Below the pieces are notes generated by a model. The model was given only the letters and a program-made list of their open reading frames with translations. It was not told the origin of the DNA and did no database searches. Below, in pieces: positions 11,410 through 21,346 of a stretch of DNA of 24,024 nucleotides (its first letter is position 1; each line of letters opens with the position of its first letter). Both the position numbers and the translations under genes were made by a program. This DNA comes from a virus, in IMG/VR virus record IMGVR_UViG_3300022539_000319, positions 1 through 24,024 of that record. One strand, given 5' to 3'.

Positions 11410-11437
11410 TTGACAACCGAAGAATTGACGATAGAAT
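11410..11437 (+). promoter_or_regulatory. Promoter of the first pseudoknot RNA
   Basis: TTGACA at 11410-11415 and TAGAAT at 11432-11437 are 16 bp apart, predicting transcription from about 11444. The 5' strand of the long A stem starts about five bases later. Confidence 0.6.
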
Positions 11438-11443
11438 TAGTAT

Positions 11444-11562
11444 ATGAACTCAATAGCAATGTCAAGTCTGTTGAATCAATCAATTATGGCTGGGGTAGAG
11501 GTCTATCCGCAAGGACGACCCGCGCTTTACATTGCTATTGAGCGCCATTTATCCCCAGCCAT
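11444..11562 (+). ncRNA. Interleaved-stem (pseudoknot) leader RNA, copy 1
   Basis: Two long perfect stems interleave. A (11449-11461, CTCAATAGCAATG) pairs for 13 bp with A' (11530-11542). B (11486-11495, ATGGCTGGGG) lies inside the A loop and pairs for 10 bp with B' (11553-11562), beyond A'. An AAGG at 11511-11514 can pair with CTTT at 11525-11528, one base before A'. The A'-B' linker is 10 nt. Lengths this great are very unlikely by chance. There is no U-run after B'. The RNA reads into a second pseudoknot and then the gene at 11650. It may fold as a true pseudoknot or switch between A-A' and B-B'. Confidence 0.6.
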
Positions 11563-11584
11563 TGATTATCTTAGGGCAGTCCGG

Positions 11585-11646
11585 CAGCGGTGGTTTTGGT
11601 TGCCTACCTTCCGCCGCTGTCCGTGCTGTCCAGAAAAGGTAGGCAA
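11585..11646 (+). promoter_or_regulatory. Second pseudoknot covering the ribosome binding site of the 11650 gene
   Basis: A 9-bp stem with one G-U pair (11585-11593/11611-11619) has in its loop 11600-11610 (TTGCCTACCTT), which pairs perfectly for 11 bp with 11636-11646 (AAGGTAGGCAA). The latter contains the Shine-Dalgarno-like AAGGTAGG, 4 nt before the ATG at 11650. This is an H-type pseudoknot that would block translation when folded. Confidence 0.55.
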
Positions 11647-11649
11647 AAA

Positions 11650-12378
11650 ATGTCAGACAAAAATGATGATTTAGAGCAAATTTACTTCTATAAGACGTTA
11701 ATTAACAAGTCAATTGACTTATACAAAGCACTTCAATCGCTAAGGGGAAAACACAAAAGCCTACCACTAAACGTTCCCGGACACATGCGCGGCAATGTTG
11801 ACCTGAAACCAGATGGTTTCTATTATTATAAAAGAAGAAATGGTCAACCTTATAACTGGAAGAAGGAATACGAAGAGGCGATAGATTGTATGCTCGCCCT
11901 GAAAATAAGGTTATTCAAATCAAACCCTAACCTTGAATTACCAGAATTACCGAAGAAAACCGAAGAAACCGATGCGGTTATAGGTTTTAATAAAATTCAG
12001 GAATGTCAAGAATGGTGTATAACAGCACAGAAAATATGGGACAGCAAAGAGCCAATAGGTGATTCAGGTGTTGGCGAAAACACTACGGAAAGACCTGTTA
12101 AAGAATGGAAAAAACCAAGAGGCTACACTGGTAGCAATACTATCATTTATTCGACAGTTGGAGAACTTAAACAAAAACTACATCTACCGACTCAGGGCGA
12201 TGAAAAAAACAAAATACCTCGCTCTACATTGGGGTCTTGGCGACAACAAGACAGTGTTAAAGGCGGCGAATTAGAAGGGGAAACTAAAACCGACCCAATT
12301 ACTTATGAAGTGTATTATCCTAATAAATGGCTCAAAAAACAAATCTTGAAATACAAGCCAAAAGACCGTAATTCGTAA
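11650..12378 (+). CDS. Unknown protein with a possible C-terminal HTH
   Basis: The ATG at 11650 follows AAGGTAGG closely; an earlier in-frame start at 11590 lies inside the leader pseudoknot and is unlikely. The product is 242 residues, charged and rather helical at the N-terminus. Near residues 170-210 the pattern STVGELKQKLHLP, a charged turn, then IPRSTLGSWRQQ looks like a helix-turn-helix of the small excisionase/regulator kind. It is the first gene of the regulatory and replication region and sits under a long structured leader, so a regulator is plausible. I do not recognise the family. Confidence 0.6.
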   Translation: MSDKNDDLEQIYFYKTLINKSIDLYKALQSLRGKHKSLPLNVPGHMRGNVDLKPDGFYYYKRRNGQPYNWKKEYEEAIDCMLALKIRLFKSNPNLELPELPKKTEETDAVIGFNKIQECQEWCITAQKIWDSKEPIGDSGVGENTTERPVKEWKKPRGYTGSNTIIYSTVGELKQKLHLPTQGDEKNKIPRSTLGSWRQQDSVKGGELEGETKTDPITYEVYYPNKWLKKQILKYKPKDRNS

Positions 12379-12519
12379 CACCACCCCTCTTAGGCAAAAC
12401 AGTTCTACGCGCAAAGCTTGCACATCTAAACACTTACAAACTTCGTAACTGTAACACGCCCTATTTTCGTGTTACGAATTGAAATAATCAAAAATAGGCT
12501 TATTCTCATACCAGAATAA
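12370..12519 (+). promoter_or_regulatory. Promoter with a cluster of inverted-repeat operators
   Basis: TTGAAA (12479-12484) and TATTCT (12501-12506) are 16 bp apart, ahead of the HTH gene at 12540. Around them: AATTCGTAACA at 12370-12380 is the exact inverse of 12470-12480; GTAACACG/CGTGTTAC pair at 12451-12458/12468-12475; CCTATTTT/AAAATAGG at 12460-12467/12491-12498 reach from upstream of the -35 into the spacer; TTATTC/GAATAA at 12500-12505/12514-12519 cover the -10. Half-sites TTCGTAAC and GTAACAC recur. This looks like a repressor-controlled early promoter. Confidence 0.5.
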
Positions 12520-12539
12520 AATTATTAAGGAGTAAACGT

Positions 12540-12746
12540 ATGGATTTTGTAACAGTTGGTGACATAGCAAAAAGGCTTGATGTTGATAGAGATGTTGTGT
12601 CCTACGCTATCCGTAAGATGAAAATTCAACCAGTAGGCCGCGCTGGTATTGTGAGAATGTTTACTGGTGCTGCACAAGCAAAGGTTAGTAAGTTTCTCAA
12701 TTCAAAAAGACGGGTTAGAAAGGAGATGTTGCGATGCACACTATAA
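12540..12746 (+). CDS. Small helix-turn-helix protein
   Basis: 68 residues behind a good AAGGAG ribosome site (10 nt spacing). TVGDIAKRLDVDRDVVSYAIRK is a clear helix-turn-helix of the MerR/excisionase type, followed by a wing-like segment with GRAGIVRMF and a basic tail. It probably binds DNA, perhaps the operator cluster immediately upstream, as an early regulator or excisionase. It overlaps the next small ORF by 13 bp. Confidence 0.65.
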   Translation: MDFVTVGDIAKRLDVDRDVVSYAIRKMKIQPVGRAGIVRMFTGAAQAKVSKFLNSKRRVRKEMLRCTL

Positions 12747-12919
12747 AAGCACCAAAAAGAAAGGTCGCCCTGCCAGGGACGACCCCGAAAAATCAACGAC
12801 ACAACGGAAAGTACCACAATCACGTTCAATTGTCAACCCCCTACGTAAAATTTTTTTCGAGGCCGAGAAAAGTGTGTCAGCGACCAGCCAACCGAAACGG
12901 AATTAAGAGAGCCTCTTGA
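12734..12919 (+). CDS. Small basic hypothetical protein
   Basis: The ATG at 12734 has AAAGGAG about 10 nt upstream, and the stop overlaps the next ATG as TGATG, which supports translation of this frame. The 61 residues are very basic and rich in proline and asparagine, without a known motif. A competing frame (12667-12906) encodes a more protein-like basic text (KKGRPARDDPEK) but lacks a clear start and ribosome site. One of the two is probably real. Confidence 0.4.
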   Translation: MHTIKAPKRKVALPGTTPKNQRHNGKYHNHVQLSTPYVKFFSRPRKVCQRPANRNGIKRAS

Positions 12920-13641
12920 TGGCGAAAACAACAAAAAATATAATCAAGAATGGATATATCATACTAGCGCGGATTATCAGGGAGTCCGCAATATGGCAGG
13001 ACAGCCCCGACTTGTTCAAGCTATTTCTATACCTGCTCATCGTGGCTCATCACGACAAGAAGCCAAAACGGTTCAATAATTTTGAGATTAAGCGTGGCGA
13101 GCTTATAACAAGCCTAAGCATCATTGCTGAGGATAATCAATATTATGAGCAGAAGGCAATTCGTAGATGGTCTCGCCAAAAAGTTGCTCGTATGCTCAGG
13201 AAATTGAAAGAACAAGAGCGAATAGAACTAATAACGGACACTTATGGAACACATATAAGTATTTGTAACTACGACCTTTACCAGAATCCAAGAGCATACA
13301 AAGCGGACAACAGTGGAACGGTAGCGGACAACAGTGGAACAACGCCGTACATATACAACAATGGTAATAATGGTAATAACGGTAACAATGATAATAAAAA
13401 GAAGGCGCGCGCTAAATTTACCAAGCCTACGGTTCAAGAGGTTTCAGAATATGCCAACAGTATCAACTATATCTCTTTGAACAGCCAGCTTTTCGTTGAT
13501 ACTTATGATGCCCGCGGCTGGATGATAGGCAAGAACAAGATGAAAGATTGGCGCGCAGCCGTCAGAACTTGGAGAGACAGAGAGAATGGACACAGTAAAA
13601 TTAGCGGAAGTAATCAACCCACTAAACAGTTTATCCGGTAG
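12919..13641 (+). CDS. Phage replication initiator (O/DnaD-like)
   Basis: The ATG at 12919 overlaps the previous stop (TGATG). The 240-residue protein begins with GYIILARIIRESAIWQDSPDLF, a winged-helix replisome-organiser N-terminus, and includes SRQKVARMLRKLKEQERIEL, its wing-helix core, near residues 90-112. A low-complexity linker of NGN repeats follows (about 148-160). The C-terminal part (FVDTYDARGWMIGKNKMKDWRAAVRTW) is the conserved block often found in phage replication proteins paired with a helicase loader. It should bind the origin and recruit the loader encoded next, with which it overlaps by 56 bp. The repeats in its coding DNA may be the origin. Confidence 0.7.
   Translation: MAKTTKNIIKNGYIILARIIRESAIWQDSPDLFKLFLYLLIVAHHDKKPKRFNNFEIKRGELITSLSIIAEDNQYYEQKAIRRWSRQKVARMLRKLKEQERIELITDTYGTHISICNYDLYQNPRAYKADNSGTVADNSGTTPYIYNNGNNGNNGNNDNKKKARAKFTKPTVQEVSEYANSINYISLNSQLFVDTYDARGWMIGKNKMKDWRAAVRTWRDRENGHSKISGSNQPTKQFIR
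13302..13395 (+). repeat. Iteron-like repeats inside the initiator gene; candidate origin
   Basis: Two exact 18-bp copies of AGCGGACAACAGTGGAAC start at 13302 and 13323 (21-bp period). They are followed at 13360-13395 by four 9-bp units (AATGGTAAT and variants), an AT-rich tract running into a stretch of A. Iterons plus AT-rich DNA inside the initiator gene is the arrangement of lambdoid origins. Confidence 0.45.
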
Positions 13642-14293
13642 GTGTGAAAACTGCGGATACGGGTTAAAACACAAAGATAAGGAAGGTCTGCGCAAGTGGT
13701 GCAAGCGATGTATTGATGTTTACTACCGCAAAGAACACCTGTGGCCAGAGTGTGCCGAACAGACAATCCTAAAGCTGGTCGAACAATTCTACCTCGATGC
13801 AAATATCGAAGCGCTGGACAAGGATGTTAGGGATAAGCTCCTGGAGCTAAAGTATGGGCAAGATGTTTTTATGTACGGGTCGGTAGGCACGGGGAAGACC
13901 TATGCTATGGCGACAATGATACGTAAATACATCTACGAAGGCTATCATTGTGAAAGAATAAACTTTGACGACTTCTGCGTAAAAGTACGGTCAACAATGG
14001 GTGTGGCAGCAAAAAAGACAGAGTGGGATTTGATAGAACCATTAAAACAGGTAGATAAAATGTTCATTGACGACCTGGGAATACGCAGCAAACAGGAAAC
14101 AGACTTTGCCTACGTCACATTCTACTCATTATTAAACAAACGCCAAGAACGGATGTTACCTACGTTTATAAGCTCCAATAAAACTATTGAGCAGTTAGGA
14201 GAATCGTTTGACCAAAGAGTAGCGTCCAGACTTCAAACAGCATTGGTGATTGAAATAACTGGCCAAGACCGGCGGGCAATTAAGAAGGATTGA
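13586..14293 (+). CDS. DnaC-like AAA+ helicase loader
   Basis: 235 residues. Walker A GSVGTGKT (98-105), Walker B MFIDDLG (159-165), sensor-1-like SSNKT (196-200) and an arginine-finger-like DQRVASRL (209-216) identify a DnaC/IstB-type ATPase. Two CxxC pairs (C20/C23 and C39/C42) near the N-terminus suggest a small zinc finger, a region where loaders contact helicase or initiator. It loads the host replicative helicase at the phage origin together with the initiator encoded upstream. The start has a purine-rich GGAGAGACAGAGAGA upstream and lies inside the end of the initiator gene. All catalytic motifs are intact. Confidence 0.85.
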   Translation: MDTVKLAEVINPLNSLSGRCENCGYGLKHKDKEGLRKWCKRCIDVYYRKEHLWPECAEQTILKLVEQFYLDANIEALDKDVRDKLLELKYGQDVFMYGSVGTGKTYAMATMIRKYIYEGYHCERINFDDFCVKVRSTMGVAAKKTEWDLIEPLKQVDKMFIDDLGIRSKQETDFAYVTFYSLLNKRQERMLPTFISSNKTIEQLGESFDQRVASRLQTALVIEITGQDRRAIKKD

Positions 14294-14297
14294 AGGA

Positions 14298-14522
14298 ATG
14301 TCACGAAACAGAAAGAGATTTGAAAGCAATAAACAGCGTAAGAGTAATCATCAGCAGAGAACATCACGGGTAACTATAGATGTTCGGCTGGAGGAAGAAA
14401 TTGTTTTATTTGATATGCGAAGTTGCAATACAACAAGGCTAAAGATTTATGAACAGCCTGGCGGGTTTACTATAGCTTTCCAAGTGCCGGCAAATATACG
14501 GATTAGCAGGAATGGCTTATGA
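14298..14522 (+). CDS. Small protein with a possible CsrA-like fold
   Basis: 74 residues, starting right after GAAGGA and 4 nt after the loader gene. The first 26 residues are basic and polar. From residue 30 the text RLEEEIVLFD lines up with the CsrA block (K/R)VGExIxIGD, and GGFTIAFQVPANIRISRNGL lines up with GxxVRxGIxAPxxVxVHRxEI, including the proline and the arginine used for RNA binding. The middle is about five residues longer than in CsrA. This resemblance was made by eye and may be chance; a structure prediction would settle it. If right, it is a phage RNA-binding protein for GGA motifs. Confidence 0.4.
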   Translation: MSRNRKRFESNKQRKSNHQQRTSRVTIDVRLEEEIVLFDMRSCNTTRLKIYEQPGGFTIAFQVPANIRISRNGL

Positions 14523-14569
14523 TAGAAAAGAGCGGTGGCGTAAAAAGACGGGTTAAGCCAGATACCTAA
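14519..14569 (+). CDS. 16-codon ORF in an ATGA overlap
   Basis: MIEKSGGVKRRVKPDT starts in an ATGA overlap with the previous gene and lies largely inside a hairpin. It may be a leader peptide or nothing. Basic composition; no known family. Confidence 0.2.
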   Translation: MIEKSGGVKRRVKPDT

Positions 14570-14584
14570 ACCGTTGCCGCCGCT
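14531..14584 (+). terminator. Long hairpin with short T-run
   Basis: AGCGGTGGC (14531-14539) pairs with GCCGCCGCT (14576-14584), 9 bp with one G-U, followed by TTTTATTTGATTT. An inner imperfect stem fills the loop. It may end the replication operon or attenuate the HTH gene at 14604. Confidence 0.4.
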
Positions 14585-14603
14585 TTTATTTGATTTATTG
14601 AAA

Positions 14604-14837
14604 ATGGTTGAATCCAACGAGAACAACTTGAACCCTTTATTACTGCCTGCGAGGGAAGCGGCGAAATTACTCAATATCAGCCTGGCGTTTTTCTATTCGC
14701 TGCACAATACAGGGAAAGTACCTTTGCCGAGGAAATTAGGTCGGCGAACCTTATGGTCGGTTCAGGAATTGAAGGATTGGATAGCTGCTGCATGCCCTGG
14801 GCGTGCAGAGTGGCAGAGACAGCGAAAGAAAGATTGA
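14604..14837 (+). CDS. AlpA/excisionase-like HTH protein
   Basis: The ATG at 14604 gives 77 residues; an upstream TTG in the same frame (14574) would lie within the hairpin. LLPAREAAKLLNISLAFFYSL, then GKVPLPRKLGRRTLWSVQELKDWI, is the winged HTH_17 pattern of AlpA and phage excisionases: it binds DNA and often controls integrase activity or expression. No ribosome site is evident. It is followed 8 nt later by a homing endonuclease gene. Confidence 0.7.
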   Translation: MVESNENNLNPLLLPAREAAKLLNISLAFFYSLHNTGKVPLPRKLGRRTLWSVQELKDWIAAACPGRAEWQRQRKKD

Positions 14838-14844
14838 TAAAGAT

Positions 14845-15342
14845 ATGAAGATAATACCGCTTACACAGGATAAGGTTGCCTACGTGGATGACGAGGACTT
14901 TGAGAGAGTGTCCCAGTACCGATGGTACGCTTTATGGAACGGTAATAAGTGGTATGCTATAGCAAATATTGACGATAAAACTGTTTATCTTCATCGCCTC
15001 ATATTAGAGACTCCTACCGGATTTGATGTTGACCATATTGACAATAACGGCCTTGACAATCGGCGCCAGAATATTCGCAACTGCACACACGCCGAGAATC
15101 TGCGAAATCAAGAGCCACAAAAAAACACTATGTCTTGTTTTAAGGGGGTTGTTTGGAATAAGCTAAAGCTCAAATGGCAAGCCCGTATAAAAGTGAACGG
15201 CAAACAGAGGTATCTTGGTTGTTTTGATAATGAAGATGAAGCTGCTCTTGCTTATAACGAAGCTGCGAAAAAATACTTCGGCGAATTTGCGAGGCTGAAT
15301 TTTATTGTCAAGCCAGGCGAAAGTTATTCTCTTTTTGCGTAA
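14845..15342 (+). CDS. HNH homing endonuclease with AP2 DNA-binding domain
   Basis: 165 residues from the ATG at 14845, which is better placed than starts inside the previous gene. Residues 45-90 hold the HNH core (VYLHRLIL, DVDHIDNNGLDNRRQNIRNC), with the DH pair and conserved asparagines intact. Residues 97-153 (FKGVVWNKLKLKWQARI ... YLGCFDNEDEAALAYNEAA) form an AP2-type DNA-binding domain. This HNH-AP2 fusion is typical of free-standing homing endonucleases of phages, which cut homologous sites lacking the gene. It sits between the AlpA-like gene and a structured intergenic region, and is probably a selfish insertion. Confidence 0.85.
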   Translation: MKIIPLTQDKVAYVDDEDFERVSQYRWYALWNGNKWYAIANIDDKTVYLHRLILETPTGFDVDHIDNNGLDNRRQNIRNCTHAENLRNQEPQKNTMSCFKGVVWNKLKLKWQARIKVNGKQRYLGCFDNEDEAALAYNEAAKKYFGEFARLNFIVKPGESYSLFA

Positions 15343-15474
15343 TTGGAAGGTAGGCTGTTAAACTACCCATCGACCTGCGAACGTCAAACACAGCTAACGT
15401 GGCAGCCTCGGAAAATAGCGAAAAGGGCTATAAATGCCCGATTCAGAAAAAAGTGATATTTTTTTTATTTTCTC

Positions 15475-15502
15475 TTGACGTAGCTTGATGGTATGATATA
15501 AT
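15475..15502 (+). promoter_or_regulatory. Promoter of the second pseudoknot RNA
   Basis: TTGACG (15475-15480) and TATAAT (15497-15502), 16 bp apart, predicting a start near 15509. The region before it, 15343-15474, holds a small GGTAG/CTACC hairpin near 15348-15366 and an AT-rich stretch, and no gene that I can see. Confidence 0.65.
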
Positions 15503-15508
15503 TGTAAA

Positions 15509-15608
15509 CACTATGAGACCCAGCGCTAATCACGGAATGATTACGGAAAGCCCAAAAGGAGTCCAGCCTTCGCGCTGGGTCTCAGCTTCTTGCGGGCTTT
15601 CTTTTTTT
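15509..15608 (+). ncRNA. Interleaved-stem (pseudoknot) leader RNA, copy 2
   Basis: A (15514-15526, TGAGACCCAGCGC) pairs for 13 bp with A' (15572-15584). Inside the A loop are a hairpin TAATCA/TGATTA (15527-15532/15538-15543) with CGGAA in its loop, then B (15546-15553, GAAAGCCC), then AAGG/CCTT (15556-15559/15567-15570) ending one C before A'. B pairs for 8 bp with B' (15594-15601), and seven T follow (15602-15608), so B-B' can act as an intrinsic terminator. The A'-B' linker is 9-10 nt. The gene at 15627 starts 19 nt after the T-run, so this is either a leader attenuator or a separate small RNA. Confidence 0.65.
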
Positions 15609-15626
15609 CTTACAAGGTAAGACAAA

Positions 15627-16343
15627 ATGTCAAAAGAGCGACTGAGCAAACTTCAAAAAGATATTCTATCTGTTATTTATAAAGAAGGAAAAACGACAGA
15701 TAAGGATATTGAATCTGTTTCCAAAAAAGACGAGAAAAAAATAACTGAACTCGAAAAACAAGGATACCAACCTGGCGGGATTGTCGGGGTTATCGGGGAA
15801 ATTGACGACCCTTTTATAACTGGAAACGCAATTTATACAAAAGAAGTGACGATTTATGAATTGACCAGGGCAGCGATTCTTTTCAAGATTTACAGATGGG
15901 AAGAATACAACGCATATGTGGAAGGCTATTATGGATTCGGTCGGTGGAGAGGCCGTCCCGATGATTATGATAAAAAACAAGTTACTCTCACTAAGACTTT
16001 ACAGAATCTTTGCGGCAAACGTTTAGTTGACTTGCGGTCGTGCTGGTATGGATTCGTCAGTGTTTATAACAAGAAACTTGCCGAGAAATTAGGCATAGAG
16101 CCGTCTGATTTTGAATCAAAAAAAAGAGAATCATTAGCTCGTAATAAGCAAAAGTATCTAAAAGAAAAGAAGGAAAATCCGCGAATAGGAACTTTTGATG
16201 AATGGTTCAATGAGACAATTATGAGCATAGGTGGGGGGCGAACAACGAGAAGGGCTATATCGGAGAGCTGGAATAATACGAGGGTGGGCAGGAATACAAG
16301 GGTAGTAAGGCTTACAGAGAACGGCGTTCAAAAAGCTAAGTAG
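15627..16343 (+). CDS. Winged-helix DNA-binding protein
   Basis: 238 residues behind AAGGTAA. The N-terminus LSKLQKDILSVIYKEGKTTDKDI is a wing-helix opening. Later, VTLTKTLQNLCGKRLVDLRS resembles the recognition helix with its LxxxGLV wing, and the C-terminus ends VVRLTENG, the typical last strand of MarR-like winged helices. About 100 residues (30-125) separate the first helix from the recognition helix and a charged stretch lies at 165-200, so it is longer than a plain regulator. Likely a transcription regulator or accessory DNA-binding protein; the target is unknown. It is controlled by its own promoter and the structured leader upstream. Confidence 0.55.
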   Translation: MSKERLSKLQKDILSVIYKEGKTTDKDIESVSKKDEKKITELEKQGYQPGGIVGVIGEIDDPFITGNAIYTKEVTIYELTRAAILFKIYRWEEYNAYVEGYYGFGRWRGRPDDYDKKQVTLTKTLQNLCGKRLVDLRSCWYGFVSVYNKKLAEKLGIEPSDFESKKRESLARNKQKYLKEKKENPRIGTFDEWFNETIMSIGGGRTTRRAISESWNNTRVGRNTRVVRLTENGVQKAK

Positions 16344-16405
16344 ATTGTTAAAGCTAAGTCCCGTATACCGTAATCAGATTTAACTTTAAGAAAGGTAGGT
16401 GAATA

Positions 16406-17077
16406 ATGTTTGTTGACTATGTTAGACTTTTTAATCGAGAAGAAAGAATCAAATATCTTTTTCAGAATTTTCAGGAATATTTTGGTCAGAAAATCTTAGA
16501 TGTAGGTTGTGATACGGCAATTCTGAAAAGGTTCATAAAAGACAAGGATATTGAATATACCGGAGTTGACATTACAGGAGAGCCGGACATTCGTTTAGAC
16601 CTTGAAAAGATTGAGCAATTACCTTTTGATGAATCTTATTTTGATTGTGTTATTTGCACAGACGTACTTGAACATATTGAGAATTTTCATTTAATTTTCT
16701 CAGAGCTTATACGTGTATCAAAAAGATATGTTGTAATTTCGTGGCCTAACTGTTGGGCATTTGTCAGAGTGCCTATGAGAAAAGGTCGTAGTCCCCATAA
16801 AAGCAAGTATGGATTGCCAGCCGAAAAACCTACAGACCGTCATAAATGGTTTTTTAACATAAAGGAAGCCATTCAGTTTGTTAATGAATATGTTAATAGA
16901 AATGAAAACATAAAACTCATTCACAAACGAGCGTGCGAGAAACCCAGAGTTTGCTGTTTTAGATGGTTGAGGCGGATAAGATACCCACGACACGAATTTT
17001 ATTTGAATAGGTATGCTCATACACTTTGGATAATATTAGAAAAATTACCAAATTTAGAAAGGAAGGTAGAAAAATGA
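16406..17077 (+). CDS. SAM-dependent methyltransferase
   Basis: 223 residues with the class I methyltransferase core: motif I ILDVGCDTAILK at 30-41 (the usual glycines partly replaced), an acidic D55 after the second strand, and FDCVICTDVLEHIENFH at 79-95, the methyltransf_11 signature. The C-terminal half (RKGRSPHKSKYG, DRHKWFF, basic tail) resembles methyltransferases found near sugar-modifying genes. The substrate is unknown; a DNA target is less likely because there is no DPPY-type motif. The start follows AAAGGTAGGTG, and the gene overlaps the integrase start (ATGA). Probably an accessory (moron-type) gene. Confidence 0.7.
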   Translation: MFVDYVRLFNREERIKYLFQNFQEYFGQKILDVGCDTAILKRFIKDKDIEYTGVDITGEPDIRLDLEKIEQLPFDESYFDCVICTDVLEHIENFHLIFSELIRVSKRYVVISWPNCWAFVRVPMRKGRSPHKSKYGLPAEKPTDRHKWFFNIKEAIQFVNEYVNRNENIKLIHKRACEKPRVCCFRWLRRIRYPRHEFYLNRYAHTLWIILEKLPNLERKVEK

Positions 17078-18348
17078 AAGCATATCAAACAAAATACAAA
17101 GACCGACACGGCAAGCCGAAGGTATGTAACGAATGGCATTTGACTTTCAACGACAGGGGGGGAACAAGAAGGCGTTTGAAGGCATATACCCACAAGAACG
17201 AAAGTGTTAAGCTCGGCCTTGAAATCGAAACCGTAATGAACAACAACGGCAAGCTCAAAACCGATGCAGATAAAAGATGGTTTACCGACTTGATGCCGAG
17301 AATCCAAAGCAATCTAATCGAATGGAATGTAGTTGACGGACGCAACACAACCGACCACTTGACCACGCCATTAAGCGAACACTTGAAGGTCTTTATTGAG
17401 ACCCGCAGGTCGAACGCTTGCAATGAGCGGTATATCGCCAACACCGACTCGAGTATATCGAGGACTTTGGAAGGTTGTGGATTCAAGATGTTCAGCGACA
17501 TTGATGCACCGGTGGTTGAAAACTTCCTTGCCAGAGGCAGGGGCGATACAGGGTATAGCGAAGGGACTTACAACGGACACCTAAGAGCAATAAAGATTTT
17601 CACAAAGTGGTTGTGTGATGAGCGCCAGTTGACCCCAGACCCGCTGGCAAGGATAAAGCTCGTTAAGCAAGTAGAAATCAGAAAGAACCGCAGGCCGTTA
17701 AGTGCAGACGAAAAGAGCAGGCTATTGAGTGCGACAAGGAACGGGGAACACAGAGGACGAATGAGTGCCGAGGCTCGCTATCTGGTCTATCGTATAGCTT
17801 CCGAATGTGGATTGAGGTACTCGGAAATCAAGGCTCTGAAAGTGCTATCATTTGACTTTGATGCGAACCCTTGCACTGTCCGGATAGAAGCCGAGAACAC
17901 AAAAGGAAAACAAGCAGACTACCTACCGCTGAACAATATCACAGCCGCCGAGATTAAGTCGTACCTGTCAGGGATGAACGCCACAGAGAAAGCGTTTGAC
18001 TTGCCACGTAGTACCAGGGCGGCGGTAATGATAAGGCTCGACTTGAAGGTCGCAGGAATCCCGCACAGGAACGAGGCCGGACAGGACATCGACTTTCACA
18101 GCTTGCGGCATACGTTTATTACAGACCTTTTTCTTGCTGGTGTCCCTGCGGTAGTGGTTCAGAGACTTGCCCGACACCAAGACCTAAAGACAACGATGGG
18201 ATATTCTCATATAACCTACGCTTCGGAAGTGGATGCAATCAGAAAACTCCGTGACTTGACCGTGACTGGACAAAATATAAAACAACCCTGGACACCAGTG
18301 GACACCAGTGGAATAGAGAAAGTGGACTTTCAGGCCAAAACCGCATAA
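17074..18348 (+). CDS. int: Tyrosine recombinase / phage integrase 1
   Basis: 424 residues from the ATG at 17074, behind GGAAGGTAG and overlapping the methyltransferase stop. An N-terminal region (1-95), a core-binding domain (about 96-185) and a catalytic domain (about 200-400) are all present. Catalytic residues visible: R248 (ECGLRYSE), K278 (NTKGKQ), H342-x-x-R345 (FHSLRHT), H368 (LARHQD), Y377 (MGYSHI). It should integrate and excise the phage at attP/attB; the attachment site may be in the gene-free region downstream, but I cannot define it. A run of seven G (17156-17162) and a 10-bp tandem repeat near the 3' end (18291-18310) are slippage-prone. Confidence 0.85.
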   Translation: MKAYQTKYKDRHGKPKVCNEWHLTFNDRGGTRRRLKAYTHKNESVKLGLEIETVMNNNGKLKTDADKRWFTDLMPRIQSNLIEWNVVDGRNTTDHLTTPLSEHLKVFIETRRSNACNERYIANTDSSISRTLEGCGFKMFSDIDAPVVENFLARGRGDTGYSEGTYNGHLRAIKIFTKWLCDERQLTPDPLARIKLVKQVEIRKNRRPLSADEKSRLLSATRNGEHRGRMSAEARYLVYRIASECGLRYSEIKALKVLSFDFDANPCTVRIEAENTKGKQADYLPLNNITAAEIKSYLSGMNATEKAFDLPRSTRAAVMIRLDLKVAGIPHRNEAGQDIDFHSLRHTFITDLFLAGVPAVVVQRLARHQDLKTTMGYSHITYASEVDAIRKLRDLTVTGQNIKQPWTPVDTSGIEKVDFQAKTA

Positions 18349-18690
18349 TCGAACCAATATCAAGGGTATTACAATGGACGGCTGGTATGTTATATGCGAC
18401 AGAAAATGAAAACGATAAGGCTATTAAAGTAATAGAGTTATGAAAACAGCCAGAACGAAAATGTTTGTTAATATGGACTGTCTTGACCTGGGCTTGTCTT
18501 TTCAGCTTAATTGTGCTATACTTTAGATGGTTAAAGTCGGCACAACTACCGCACACAGTACCTATTCTGCGCCACAGGGTACGCTCTGGCGCTATGCCAG
18601 CGAGCAAACGACCTTCTAATGGCTATCACAGGGTTTAGCACTATCTTACTACGCCCCCCCTAAATTTTTTTCACAAAAATCTCAGAAAAG
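18349..18690. other. Gene-free region after integrase 1
   Basis: Only micro-ORFs (11 and 28 codons) are present. TTGTCT (18494-18499) and TATACT (18517-18522), 17 bp apart, could be a promoter. Downstream, GTACC/GGTAC (18558-18562/18578-18582) and GCGCCA/TGGCGC (18569-18574/18587-18592) interleave, and a hairpin TGGC-GCTAT-GCCA overlaps the second. Seven C and a T-run follow at 18654-18671. attP would be expected in this stretch. Confidence 0.35.
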
Positions 18691-18692
18691 TG

Positions 18693-18720
18693 TTGACAAA
18701 CCCGCCCGAGCGCCGATAAT
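18693..18720 (+). promoter_or_regulatory. Promoter of the third pseudoknot RNA
   Basis: TTGACA (18693-18698) and GATAAT (18715-18720), 16 bp apart; predicted start near 18727. Confidence 0.6.
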
Positions 18721-18726
18721 GGTGGT

Positions 18727-18840
18727 ATGGAAACAACAAAGTTACAAAACCCATACCAAACAACTGCCCTGGAGTTCTGTTTCTGCAAAGGACAGACGGC
18801 CTTCACTTTGTTGTGCCGCATAGCTCCAGGGCGCCTTTTT
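18727..18840 (+). ncRNA. Interleaved-stem (pseudoknot) leader RNA, copy 3
   Basis: A (18733-18742, ACAACAAAGT) pairs for 10 bp with A' (18805-18814). B (18766-18774, GCCCTGGAG) lies in the A loop and pairs for 9 bp, extendable with G-U pairs, with B' (18824-18832). AAGG (18788-18791) pairs with CCTT (18800-18803), one C before A'. Five T end the element (18836-18840). The A'-B' linker is 9 nt. The HNH gene starts 13 nt later. The 5' end TGGTATGG can also pair with CCATACCA at 18751-18758. The architecture matches copies 1 and 2. Confidence 0.6.
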
Positions 18841-18853
18841 AAGAGGCTCTATT

Positions 18854-19204
18854 ATGAAAACAACAGAGACAGAACCAAAATCACAGGGGGACAACCAACT
18901 TAGATTTTCTCGCTGGCTGTTTTACCGCAACCGCCTACGCTTCGCCATCTTCCGCAGGGACGGCTTTCGCTGTCGATACTGCAATCAGTCGGTCGAAAGC
19001 GGAATCGAATTGACCTTAGAGCATATTGTCCCGTTGAGCAAAGGTGGCGATTACTCTGCCGACAACCTACTTACAGCTTGCAAGGAATGTAATCAGGGTA
19101 AAGCCGATGCCGAACTAACGCCTGCCGAGCTAAAGATGTTCAAAAGCCCAGGTCTGCTGTTTGCTAACTGGCCGTTCGTAGGATGGAAGGCGGTGGCGCT
19201 ATGA
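18854..19204 (+). CDS. HNH nuclease
   Basis: 116 residues. FRCRYC (C40, C43), LTLEHIVPLSKGGDYSADNL (H57, N71) and CKECNQGK (C76, C79) form a zinc-bound HNH nuclease core of the McrA/HNH_5 type, intact in all key residues. There is a basic N-terminal region (RWLFYRNRLRFAIFRR). It could be a homing or accessory nuclease. It shares a promoter and the structured leader with integrase 2, whose start overlaps its stop (ATGA). AAGAGG is the likely ribosome site. Confidence 0.8.
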   Translation: MKTTETEPKSQGDNQLRFSRWLFYRNRLRFAIFRRDGFRCRYCNQSVESGIELTLEHIVPLSKGGDYSADNLLTACKECNQGKADAELTPAELKMFKSPGLLFANWPFVGWKAVAL

Positions 19205-20484
19205 TTACCGAAGAAGTTCTTTCGCCGTATGTTACTCTGAGAAGGCTGCCTGAACCCGAACCAATACCTAAGCCAAAGCCTGAACCATTAAAAGAAAATA
19301 CTCCAATCACTGAGGCAGTCGATAAATGGATGGAACGCGCCCGTCAACTTAGTCCGCGTACTCAATATCCATACCACAATGTAATTTCTAACTTTTCATT
19401 ATCGCTACCAGAAAGTGTTGAGACTATCGGCCAACTTAGCTGCGAATTTGTCGAAAGCTATATTGAAAACATCAAAGATGAATATACACCGAAAACGCTA
19501 AAAAATTATCAGAGTATTGTAAGAGCGTTTCATTTTTGGTTGGTTCGTCAATATGGCATAAAAGACATTATTCAGAGAAAACCCAAAACAATAAAGACCA
19601 GAGCAGTAAAACCCAAACCTGAACCGAAGCCACTTCCCGTTCTGAAAGCGCCGGACGGTTCAAACGTAATCGCCGAATGGCTCGAATACTGTCGGCGTTA
19701 CGCCAAAAATACCCAAGATGACTATCGTAGTGTAATTTCGAGATTTATCAAATTCTTAGATATTGAAAACATCGACCAACTAAATTGTAGGGTAATCGAG
19801 CAATACATCAGCAGCCTGCTCGGTGAGGGCAAGAAAAACGCCACGGCCAACCGATATTTAGCTACCATCAAAAGTTTTTGTCGCTGGCTTGCCAGGAATT
19901 ACAATGTGCCTAACTGCACAATCGGAATCCAAAGATTAAAAACAGACCCGACAGAGCCGAGAGTATTGACCTGGGAAGAATACAAAAAAATCCTGTCCGT
20001 CTGCAATGGGCAAGAAGAAGGCGATATAGCTCGTTTCCTTGCCAACACCGGCGTCCGATGCTCGGAACTTATCAGCCTGCGGTGGGGAAATGTAAGTAAA
20101 GACCTCAAGATGCTCAAAGTAATTGGCAAAGGTCGCAAGCTGAGGCACATCCCGTTAAATGAAATATGCCGAGATATACTGTTAAAATATGAGAGGGGAC
20201 TGGACGATACCCGATTGGATTTTGTCAGACATCGTACCAATAGAAAGTCTATTTATAATATTTGTGCTAAGTTGGCAGAGCGAGCAGGAATCCCGAGAGC
20301 AGGTGCGCACTCATTTAGGCACTTATTTGCGACCGAGTTACTGCGTAGAGGTGTTCCAATTTCGCACGTCAGCAAGTTGTTAGGCCATAGCTCAATAGCG
20401 ATAACGGAAAAAGCCTACATACATTTCCAGCCAGATTTTCTGAACGGCTTGACGGATGTGCTTGTGTGCTTGCAGAGTAATTGA
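19201..20484 (+). CDS. Tyrosine recombinase 2 with two core-binding domains
   Basis: 427 residues, starting in an ATGA overlap with the HNH gene. The catalytic domain (about 253-420) has R286 (NTGVRCSEL), K310 (GKGRK), H370-x-x-R373 (HSFRHL), H396 (LLGHSS) and Y406 (KAYIHF), so it looks active. Unusually, two SAM-like core-binding domains lie in tandem: residues 35-122 (ITEAVDKWMERARQLSPRT ... AFHFWLVRQYG) and 155-236 (VIAEWLEYCRRYAKNTQDD ... SFCRWLARNYN). They are related to each other and joined by proline- and lysine-rich linkers (PEPEPIPKPKPEP, KPKPEPKPLP). Integrases normally have one. It may bind a longer or doubled arm site. Confidence 0.8.
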   Translation: MITEEVLSPYVTLRRLPEPEPIPKPKPEPLKENTPITEAVDKWMERARQLSPRTQYPYHNVISNFSLSLPESVETIGQLSCEFVESYIENIKDEYTPKTLKNYQSIVRAFHFWLVRQYGIKDIIQRKPKTIKTRAVKPKPEPKPLPVLKAPDGSNVIAEWLEYCRRYAKNTQDDYRSVISRFIKFLDIENIDQLNCRVIEQYISSLLGEGKKNATANRYLATIKSFCRWLARNYNVPNCTIGIQRLKTDPTEPRVLTWEEYKKILSVCNGQEEGDIARFLANTGVRCSELISLRWGNVSKDLKMLKVIGKGRKLRHIPLNEICRDILLKYERGLDDTRLDFVRHRTNRKSIYNICAKLAERAGIPRAGAHSFRHLFATELLRRGVPISHVSKLLGHSSIAITEKAYIHFQPDFLNGLTDVLVCLQSN

Positions 20485-20764: not shown

Positions 20765-21346
20765 TCAATATAGCCCATTGACGCCTTCCCGCATTTCATC
20801 GAACGATACATCGGCGTAGATATTGGCCGTTACCGCAGGGCTTGAATGGCCGAGTTGTTTTTGCACTTGCCGGAGATTCTTTGTTTTCTTGAGCAGCATA
20901 AATCCCATCGTGTGCCGAGCGGAATGAATCGACAATTCTTTTGGTAGTCCAGCCCGCTTGATAGCGTTTTTCCAGATTCGTTGCAGACCTTCTCGATGTA
21001 ACCGACCGCGCTTGCCCATAAATAACCATCCGGACGCCCGCTCACCAAGATAATTTTTCAAGTGAGCTACAAGGCTGTCTGAAATAGCAAGAGTTTCGGA
21101 CTTCTTTTTCTTTTTTTTGAGCCGGACGACCTTAATGGCCTTGCGTTTGAAGTCAATATCTTTGACTTTTAGCTCTGCCATTTCACCGACTCGGAGTCCG
21201 GTCCCGAGCGCTACATCGACTACGAGCCACGTCAGCGTCCCTTGAATCCGTCCCTTGTATAAGTCAGCGTCATTCCAAGCGAGCGTTGTATAGCAGAGCT
21301 TCTTGACCTCTGAGTCATCGAGATACTTTGTTCGGTCGATACTCAT
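20765..21346 (-). CDS. Tyrosine recombinase 3, catalytic domain only
   Basis: 193 residues on the minus strand behind GAAAGGAAC. All catalytic residues are present: R52 (GTGLRVGEM), a lysine run at 77-82, H141-x-x-R144 (SIHSARHT), H167 (QLGHSS), Y177 (ANIYAD). The core-binding domain that should come first is missing: the protein starts directly at KYLDDSEVKKL, the usual beginning of the catalytic domain, and has its own good ribosome site, so this does not look like random decay. It is the third and last gene of a minus-strand operon. It might act as a small recombinase, cooperate with another DNA-binding protein, or be a remnant. Confidence 0.75.
   Translation of the reverse strand: MSIDRTKYLDDSEVKKLCYTTLAWNDADLYKGRIQGTLTWLVVDVALGTGLRVGEMAELKVKDIDFKRKAIKVVRLKKKKKKSETLAISDSLVAHLKNYLGERASGWLFMGKRGRLHREGLQRIWKNAIKRAGLPKELSIHSARHTMGFMLLKKTKNLRQVQKQLGHSSPAVTANIYADVSFDEMREGVNGLY

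Follow-up and report, generated by a model that had tools for sequence, protein, structure and literature searches.

The window analysed here is a linear 24-kb viral record in IMG/VR (IMGVR_UViG_3300022539_000319, positions 1 to 24,024). Among its genes are those for tail and internal virion proteins and for the small terminase, two of the HNH type, and three for tyrosine recombinases. It also encodes a DnaD-like loader and an ATPase of the DnaA/IstB-like type, which its position makes DnaC-like. Three interleaved structures, in which helices A:A' and B:B' are built from strands in the order A-B-A'-B', lie just 3' of promoters in this record (Table 1). Copy 1 stands at the head of the replication genes. 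Copy 2 leads a group made up of a 238-aa gene and the genes for a methyltransferase and an integrase, and copy 3 leads an HNH gene and another integrase gene. The 242-aa and 238-aa proteins encoded 3' of copies 1 and 2 match no family, and their AlphaFold models (pLDDT 36-38) are useless. The three tyrosine recombinases (17026-18348, 19183-20484, and 20765-21346) all differ from one another and two of them lie 3' of a knot leader; the presence of three in one 24-kb record suggests stacked mobile elements. Just 5' of promoter 2 (14803-15342) lies the gene for a protein with HNH and AP2 domains, the composition seen in free-standing homing endonucleases.

Table 1. Promoters, paired strands, leader ORFs, and adjoining genes of the knot leaders in the window
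Feature	Position	Strand	Remarks
Promoter 1	11410-11437	+	TTGACA-16 bp-TAGAAT, direct reading
Leader ORF 1, 76 aa	11444-11674	+	ATG at predicted +1; spans both pseudoknots; 25-nt overlap with gene start at 11650
Copy 1 strand A	11449-11462	+	pairs with A' 11529-11542, 14 bp
Copy 1 strand B	11486-11495	+	pairs with B' 11553-11562, 10 bp
Copy 1 strand A'	11529-11542	+	partner of A; linker A'-B' 10 nt
Copy 1 strand B'	11553-11562	+	no U-tract after it
Second, tandem interleaved structure near copy 1	11575-11646	+	score 47.5
Tandem structure, helix one	11575-11590 / 11614-11631	+	imperfect; limits read by eye
Tandem structure, helix two	11600-11610 / 11636-11646	+	11 bp; limits read by eye; 3' strand holds SD of gene 11650
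Gene 3' of copy 1, 242 aa	11650-12378	+	no family match
Promoter 2	15475-15502	+	TTGACG-16 bp-TATAAT, direct reading
Leader ORF 2, 35 aa	15513-15620	+	ATG at about +5; stop TAA right after SD AAGG of gene 15627
Copy 2 strand A	15514-15526	+	pairs with 15572-15584, 13 bp; includes two start-codon bases
Copy 2 strand B	15546-15553	+	pairs with 15594-15601, 8 bp
Copy 2 strand A'	15572-15584	+	partner of A; linker A'-B' 9 nt
Copy 2 strand B' and immediate U-tract	15594-15609	+	TTTTTTTC; B' is 15594-15601
Gene 3' of copy 2, 238 aa	15627-16343	+	no family match
Promoter 3	18693-18720	+	TTGACA-16 bp-GATAAT, direct reading
Leader ORF 3, 58 aa	18727-18903	+	ATG at predicted +1; 50-nt overlap with HNH gene start
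Copy 3 strand A	18733-18742	+	pairs with 18805-18814, 10 bp
Copy 3 strand B	18766-18774	+	pairs with B' 18824-18832, 9 bp
Copy 3 strand A'	18805-18814	+	partner of A; linker A'-B' 9 nt
Copy 3 strand B', GCC, and U-tract	18824-18840	+	B' is 18824-18832; U-tract TTTTT; SD AAGAGG immediately 3'
Gene 3' of copy 3, HNH endonuclease	18854-19204	+	then tyrosine integrase

Strength of the structures in the window

As the original prediction had it, each structure follows a promoter of the plan TTGAC(A/G)-16 bp-TATAAT-like, and the three were found at the expected places. They are also the best-scoring of their kind, since the structure scan returned copies 1, 2, and 3, with scores of 60, 56.5, and 48.5, as the top three nonredundant + strand interleaved structures in the window. 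In 837,574 scanned bases, the window included, they were the only sites to combine a knot score of at least 48 with a consensus-like promoter. When a promoter, an ATG, and an open frame were required, copies 1-3 and a locus from another viral record (L095, see below) scored 48.5-60, whereas the remainder of the 1.9 Mb reached 40.5 at most and the reversed-sequence control 37.5.

The stem lengths predicted for copies 2 and 3 (13+8 and 10+9 bp) agree with our measurements; that of copy 1, predicted as 13+10 bp, is 14+10 bp. The predicted linkers of 9-10 nt are borne out, as are the U-runs before the gene in two copies, namely copies 2 and 3 and not copy 1. The AAGG...CYTT hairpin described as part of the plan is present in all three, but it is weak in copy 1 and absent from three of the four members added below. 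The original prediction had missed the fourth interleaved structure at 11575-11646, and also that all three RNAs sit within small ORFs. It had recognised no named RNA, and comparison of the whole window with all 4227 Rfam families at the gathering threshold likewise gave no match; at relaxed E-values there were chance matches only in copies 1 and 2, and none in copy 3. The view that one plan is shared by unrelated stem sequences is supported, and the plan recurs in three other viral records. Its description as natural covariation went too far, since the copies cannot be aligned as homologues and covariation is therefore not strictly shown. A covariance-model route fails because the architecture alone is common to the copies.

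A further candidate at 18527-18616 (region 18494-18616), with a TTGTCT-17-TATACT promoter, an ATG, a short ORF, and interleaved helices of 5 and 6 bp, was rejected because the helices are short; the site is possibly a decayed copy, yet it is well within chance. Between the 242-aa gene and an HTH gene (12369-12498), mutually complementary repeats, TTCGTAAC / GTTACGAA with CCTATTTT / AAAATAGG, allow several alternative interleaved pairings, without a promoter.

Members in other viral records

Further members were sought by scanning approximately 3 Mb of phage DNA and by two pattern searches of IMG/VR. Four probable members, admitted by rules set by judgement during the search, were added from three unrelated viral records (L095, L253, and twice L256, as L256a and L256b), giving a total of seven leaders in four viral records with a common plan and unrelated stem sequences. 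A total of 80 phage loci were collected through a conserved segment in the DnaD-like protein, and the structure scan of these yielded L095:1956, where TTGCAA-16-TAAAGT is followed after six bases by ATG, the B helix has 13 bp, the linker is 7 nt, and CTTTTCTT comes after B'. We grade L095 as a probable member, resting on the sum of its features, because chance would by itself bring a promoter and a U-tract to approximately 0.35 of 22 equally strong knots.

When viral sequences were scanned for leaderless promoters combined with GGGC..TTTT, 28 sites emerged, and two of these, L253 and L256a, carry a knot; this retrieval pattern already demanded the promoter, the start codon, and the T-run. L253 has stems of 13+9 bp, a linker of 3 nt, and a score of 62.5. 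In L256a, a helix of 14 bp including two G-U pairs is combined with one of 7 bp and a linker of 10 nt, and the site scores 54.5, although its second helix (AAGCCCC/GGGGCTT) was assigned by eye and is paired differently by the scorer. Dinucleotide shuffling of these 28 sites, with 1,120 shuffles in all, gave a best score of 45.5, so that none reached 50. L256b, found independently in the promoter-based scan, lies on the opposite strand 1.4 kb from L256a and scores 54. Its start, ATTGTGAGCGC (L256, 9345-9434), resembles an E. coli lac operator half-site in the same promoter-relative place, which is probably a coincidence.

No relatives were found with the downstream proteins as queries, and the window leader peptides as queries revealed neither relatives nor a detectable common family. 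The element was absent from the scanned parts of L002 and L007, the closest phages by the 1408-aa protein (53%), and the rest of a set of 43 related viral records gave no further members. Patterns joining a promoter to the AAGG hairpin returned from IMG/VR coding-sequence clones and ordinary leaderless genes, with no knots, and pattern hits in L258 and L272 were rejected because their U-tracts, read by eye, follow local hairpins rather than an interleaved B:B'. One sequence pattern run against 396 Nitrospirota genomes listed approximately 30 distinct sites; none was accepted among the loci drawn and scanned, the best of which (L293, score 46) was rejected for having neither a consensus -10 nor a U-tract. 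With a looser stem finder, controls scored as high as hits, and it was judged too permissive to be used alone.

Anatomy of the leaders and their reading frame

The promoter, the strand order, the pairing, the U-tracts, the open frame, and the placement before the next gene are all read directly in the sequence. The 5' end is occupied by strand A, which overlaps or abuts the leader start; in L253, where the +1 ATG is followed by TGA, strand A instead carries an SD-like stretch and the leader ATG is at +20, so that A:A' would again mask the leader start. A U-tract follows B' in six of the seven leaders, directly in five and after two or three bases in copy 3, and is only TTT in L256a; copy 1 has none. 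The SD of the next gene comes right after the U-tract in copies 2 and 3, L253, and L256b, and in copy 1 the B' strand of the tandem knot includes the SD of the 242-aa gene. Thus, the G+C-rich stem leading into a U-tract that marks intrinsic terminators and attenuators is found in six leaders, with strands 33-67 nt apart, which is unusual for a terminator stem. The loops are long in all seven (L1, 13-27 nt; L2, 16-33 nt), and by geometric reasoning these lengths should suffice for both helices to coexist. In prefix folding, A:A' was the minimum-energy fold of every leader when A' had just emerged, and the nested minimum switched to B:B' in five of the seven as B' emerged. Nested folds are as stable as or stabler than the summed helices in several members, and the knot itself is therefore only a candidate structure. 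The AAGG hairpin occurs in four leaders (L253 and the three window copies) and is a nondefining feature.

The leader frame is open across the entire knot in all seven, with no stop in 221 codons, as compared with 14 in 218 and 6 in 217 codons in the other two frames (20/435 pooled). At the pooled 4.6%, zero stops in 221 codons has a probability of approximately 3e-5, a result somewhat favoured by the choice of leader start with the frame known; in copy 3, L095, and L256b, one other frame is likewise open across the knot. The start codon lies at the predicted +1 in copies 1 and 3, L095, and L256a (ATG) and in L256b (GTG), a position that was selected for in L256a and unselected in the other four. 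The leader of copy 2 stops just past the SD of the next gene, that of L256b ends on the next ATG (ATGA), those of copies 1 and 3 and L253 overlap the next gene start, and that of L256a joins the next gene in frame; L095 has no clear gene closely downstream. Leader ORFs range from 31 to 76 aa or continue into the next gene, and their peptides are dissimilar to each other, those of the window matching no family. A leader ORF that overlaps competing helices, the mark of a ribosome-mediated attenuator, is found at all seven knots, which makes an untranslated small RNA an incomplete description of elements that the original prediction treated as noncoding.

A possible attenuator and its alternatives

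It is quite plausible, if somewhat short of probable, that each element is a cis-acting promoter-proximal pseudoknot attenuator governed by translation of its own leader ORF. Among the three functions that had been offered, a cis attenuator fits best, since the U-tract follows B' in six of the seven leaders and precedes the next-gene SD in four. The prefix folding switch together with the leader ORF suggests a race between ribosome loading and RNA folding, and from the layout of the leaders we infer transcription start, termination, translation, coupling, and this race as follows. With a start codon that opens the transcript or lies a few bases into it, a ribosome could load by leaderless initiation once the 5' end leaves the polymerase, and a ribosome that did so would read through A and B so that neither helix forms. 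The terminator made of B:B' and the U-tract would then stay open, as would the second, SD-blocking knot that takes its place in copy 1, and by coupling the leader ribosome would carry translation into the downstream gene. Should A' be made, approximately 50-80 nt later, before any ribosome has arrived, A:A' would pair and mask the leader start, and its hairpin loop would hold B 3-10 nt from the emerging B'. B:B' would form directly 5' of the U-tract, leading to termination and a stable RNA of approximately 80-110 nt. Helix A would serve as the leader-start mask and helix B as the terminator or SD-blocker, and the elements look like an undescribed on/off switch in which an early ribosome would keep the downstream gene on.

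If this is true, the switch would sense ribosome arrival within about the first hundred nucleotides of the transcript, and phages would have attenuators that are invisible to sequence-profile searches, as the pairing plan alone is conserved. Leaderless starts in phages would also gain a testable role, and switches could be designed by a compact rule that is free of sequence. A more tentative proposal, possible although leaning toward the unlikely, is that the leaders form a new class of phage leader RNA set by topology and not by sequence, with a 5'-terminal start codon, a start-masking first helix, a second helix acting as terminator or SD-blocker, and a race of ribosome versus folding at several promoters of one phage.

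Judged by their layout, the knot leaders would work like an attenuator. In trp- and erm-type attenuators, the ribosome on the leader ORF decides the choice of helix by way of nested competing hairpins, whereas here two interleaved helices could coexist. In mycobacteria, according to work cited in PMC9031893, leaderless short ORFs at +1 (polycysteine uORFs) attenuate the next gene; these sense cysteine through codon content, in contrast to the knot leaders, which have no repeated codon and carry a pseudoknot and a U-tract instead. An HDV-like ribozyme seems improbable and was dropped, given the long J1/2, the lack of P4, and the overlong stems.

It is somewhat unlikely that the elements are U-tract-terminated small regulatory RNAs acting in trans on read-through copies (A on A' and B on B'), as RNA immunity or as a dual sRNA/mRNA like P4 CI RNA or Gifsy-1 IsrK, with fast-changing stems setting the specificity. 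A self-contained RNA of this size ending in U would suit such a role, as would a plan that is kept while the stems differ between copies and phages, and the position of copy 1 and L253 at the head of replication operons. In P4, an integrase-bearing element, CI RNA immunity ends the early transcript in its leader by RNA pairing, as may happen here; however, CI RNA is processed and acts in trans, and the P4 record has no match to the descriptor of promoter, ATG, and frame. The U-tract just before the next-gene SD in four of the seven points to action in cis, and the window holds no second copies of the A or B targets beyond scattered 8-mers. The C4 RNA of P1/P7 (c4-icd-ant operon) likewise has a promoter, a self-complementary leader with two paired sites, and a small ORF coupled to the next gene, but the order in the annotated P1 record is a1-b1-b'-a'-a2-b2, its sites are of 7-8 nt, and C4 is RNase P-processed and trans-acting (PMC5320573); the processed RNA has approximately 77 nt. 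Membership of C4 was dropped on site order, and Rfam gave no C4 match either.

By analogy, the nearest logic to the knot leaders appears to be that of IsrK. The Gifsy-1 locus of a Salmonella prophage (isrK-orf45-anrP) has a promoter, an intrinsically terminated short RNA, and a read-through mRNA, with leader ORF translation coupled to the next gene and an inactive long-range pairing (PMC4825925). The presence there of the same components (promoter, terminator, overlapping ORF, and coupled gene) favours a trans-acting RNA, yet orf45 lies 3' of the terminator with its own RBS, while in the knot leaders the ORF begins at or near +1 and extends across the terminator itself, and PMC4825925 describes no pseudoknot.

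It is distinctly unlikely that the knots are landing sites, recognised by shape and not by sequence, of one phage-encoded protein or modified polymerase that would control all such promoters by antitermination or termination. One phage can indeed carry several copies, as the window has three or four and L256 two, all just 3' of promoters, but no sequence element is common to all seven, even the AAGG hairpin being limited to four, and no candidate regulator was identified. We consider it quite improbable that the leader peptide is the main product, a small phage protein with the kind of coupling to the next gene that links Icd to Ant in P1, and that the pairing merely tunes translation. The frame is open in all members and overlaps or nearly overlaps the next gene in most, as such a protein would require; against this stand the dissimilar sequences, without a family in the window, the varied lengths, and the U-tracts, which would be left unexplained. 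Ordinary promoter-proximal terminators with a second helix interleaved by chance are very improbable: there are seven cases only, and the scan that retrieved L253 and L256a had promoter, ATG, and GGGC..TTTT as entry requirements, but the scores separate from those of the filtered remainder, the reversed control, and the shuffles, L256b was found independently so close to L256a, and three copies occur in one 24-kb window.

In the pattern scans of L039-L080 and L248-L275, many leaderless-looking phage genes had an ATG six bases past a consensus -10, and phages of this kind may often use leaderless starts.
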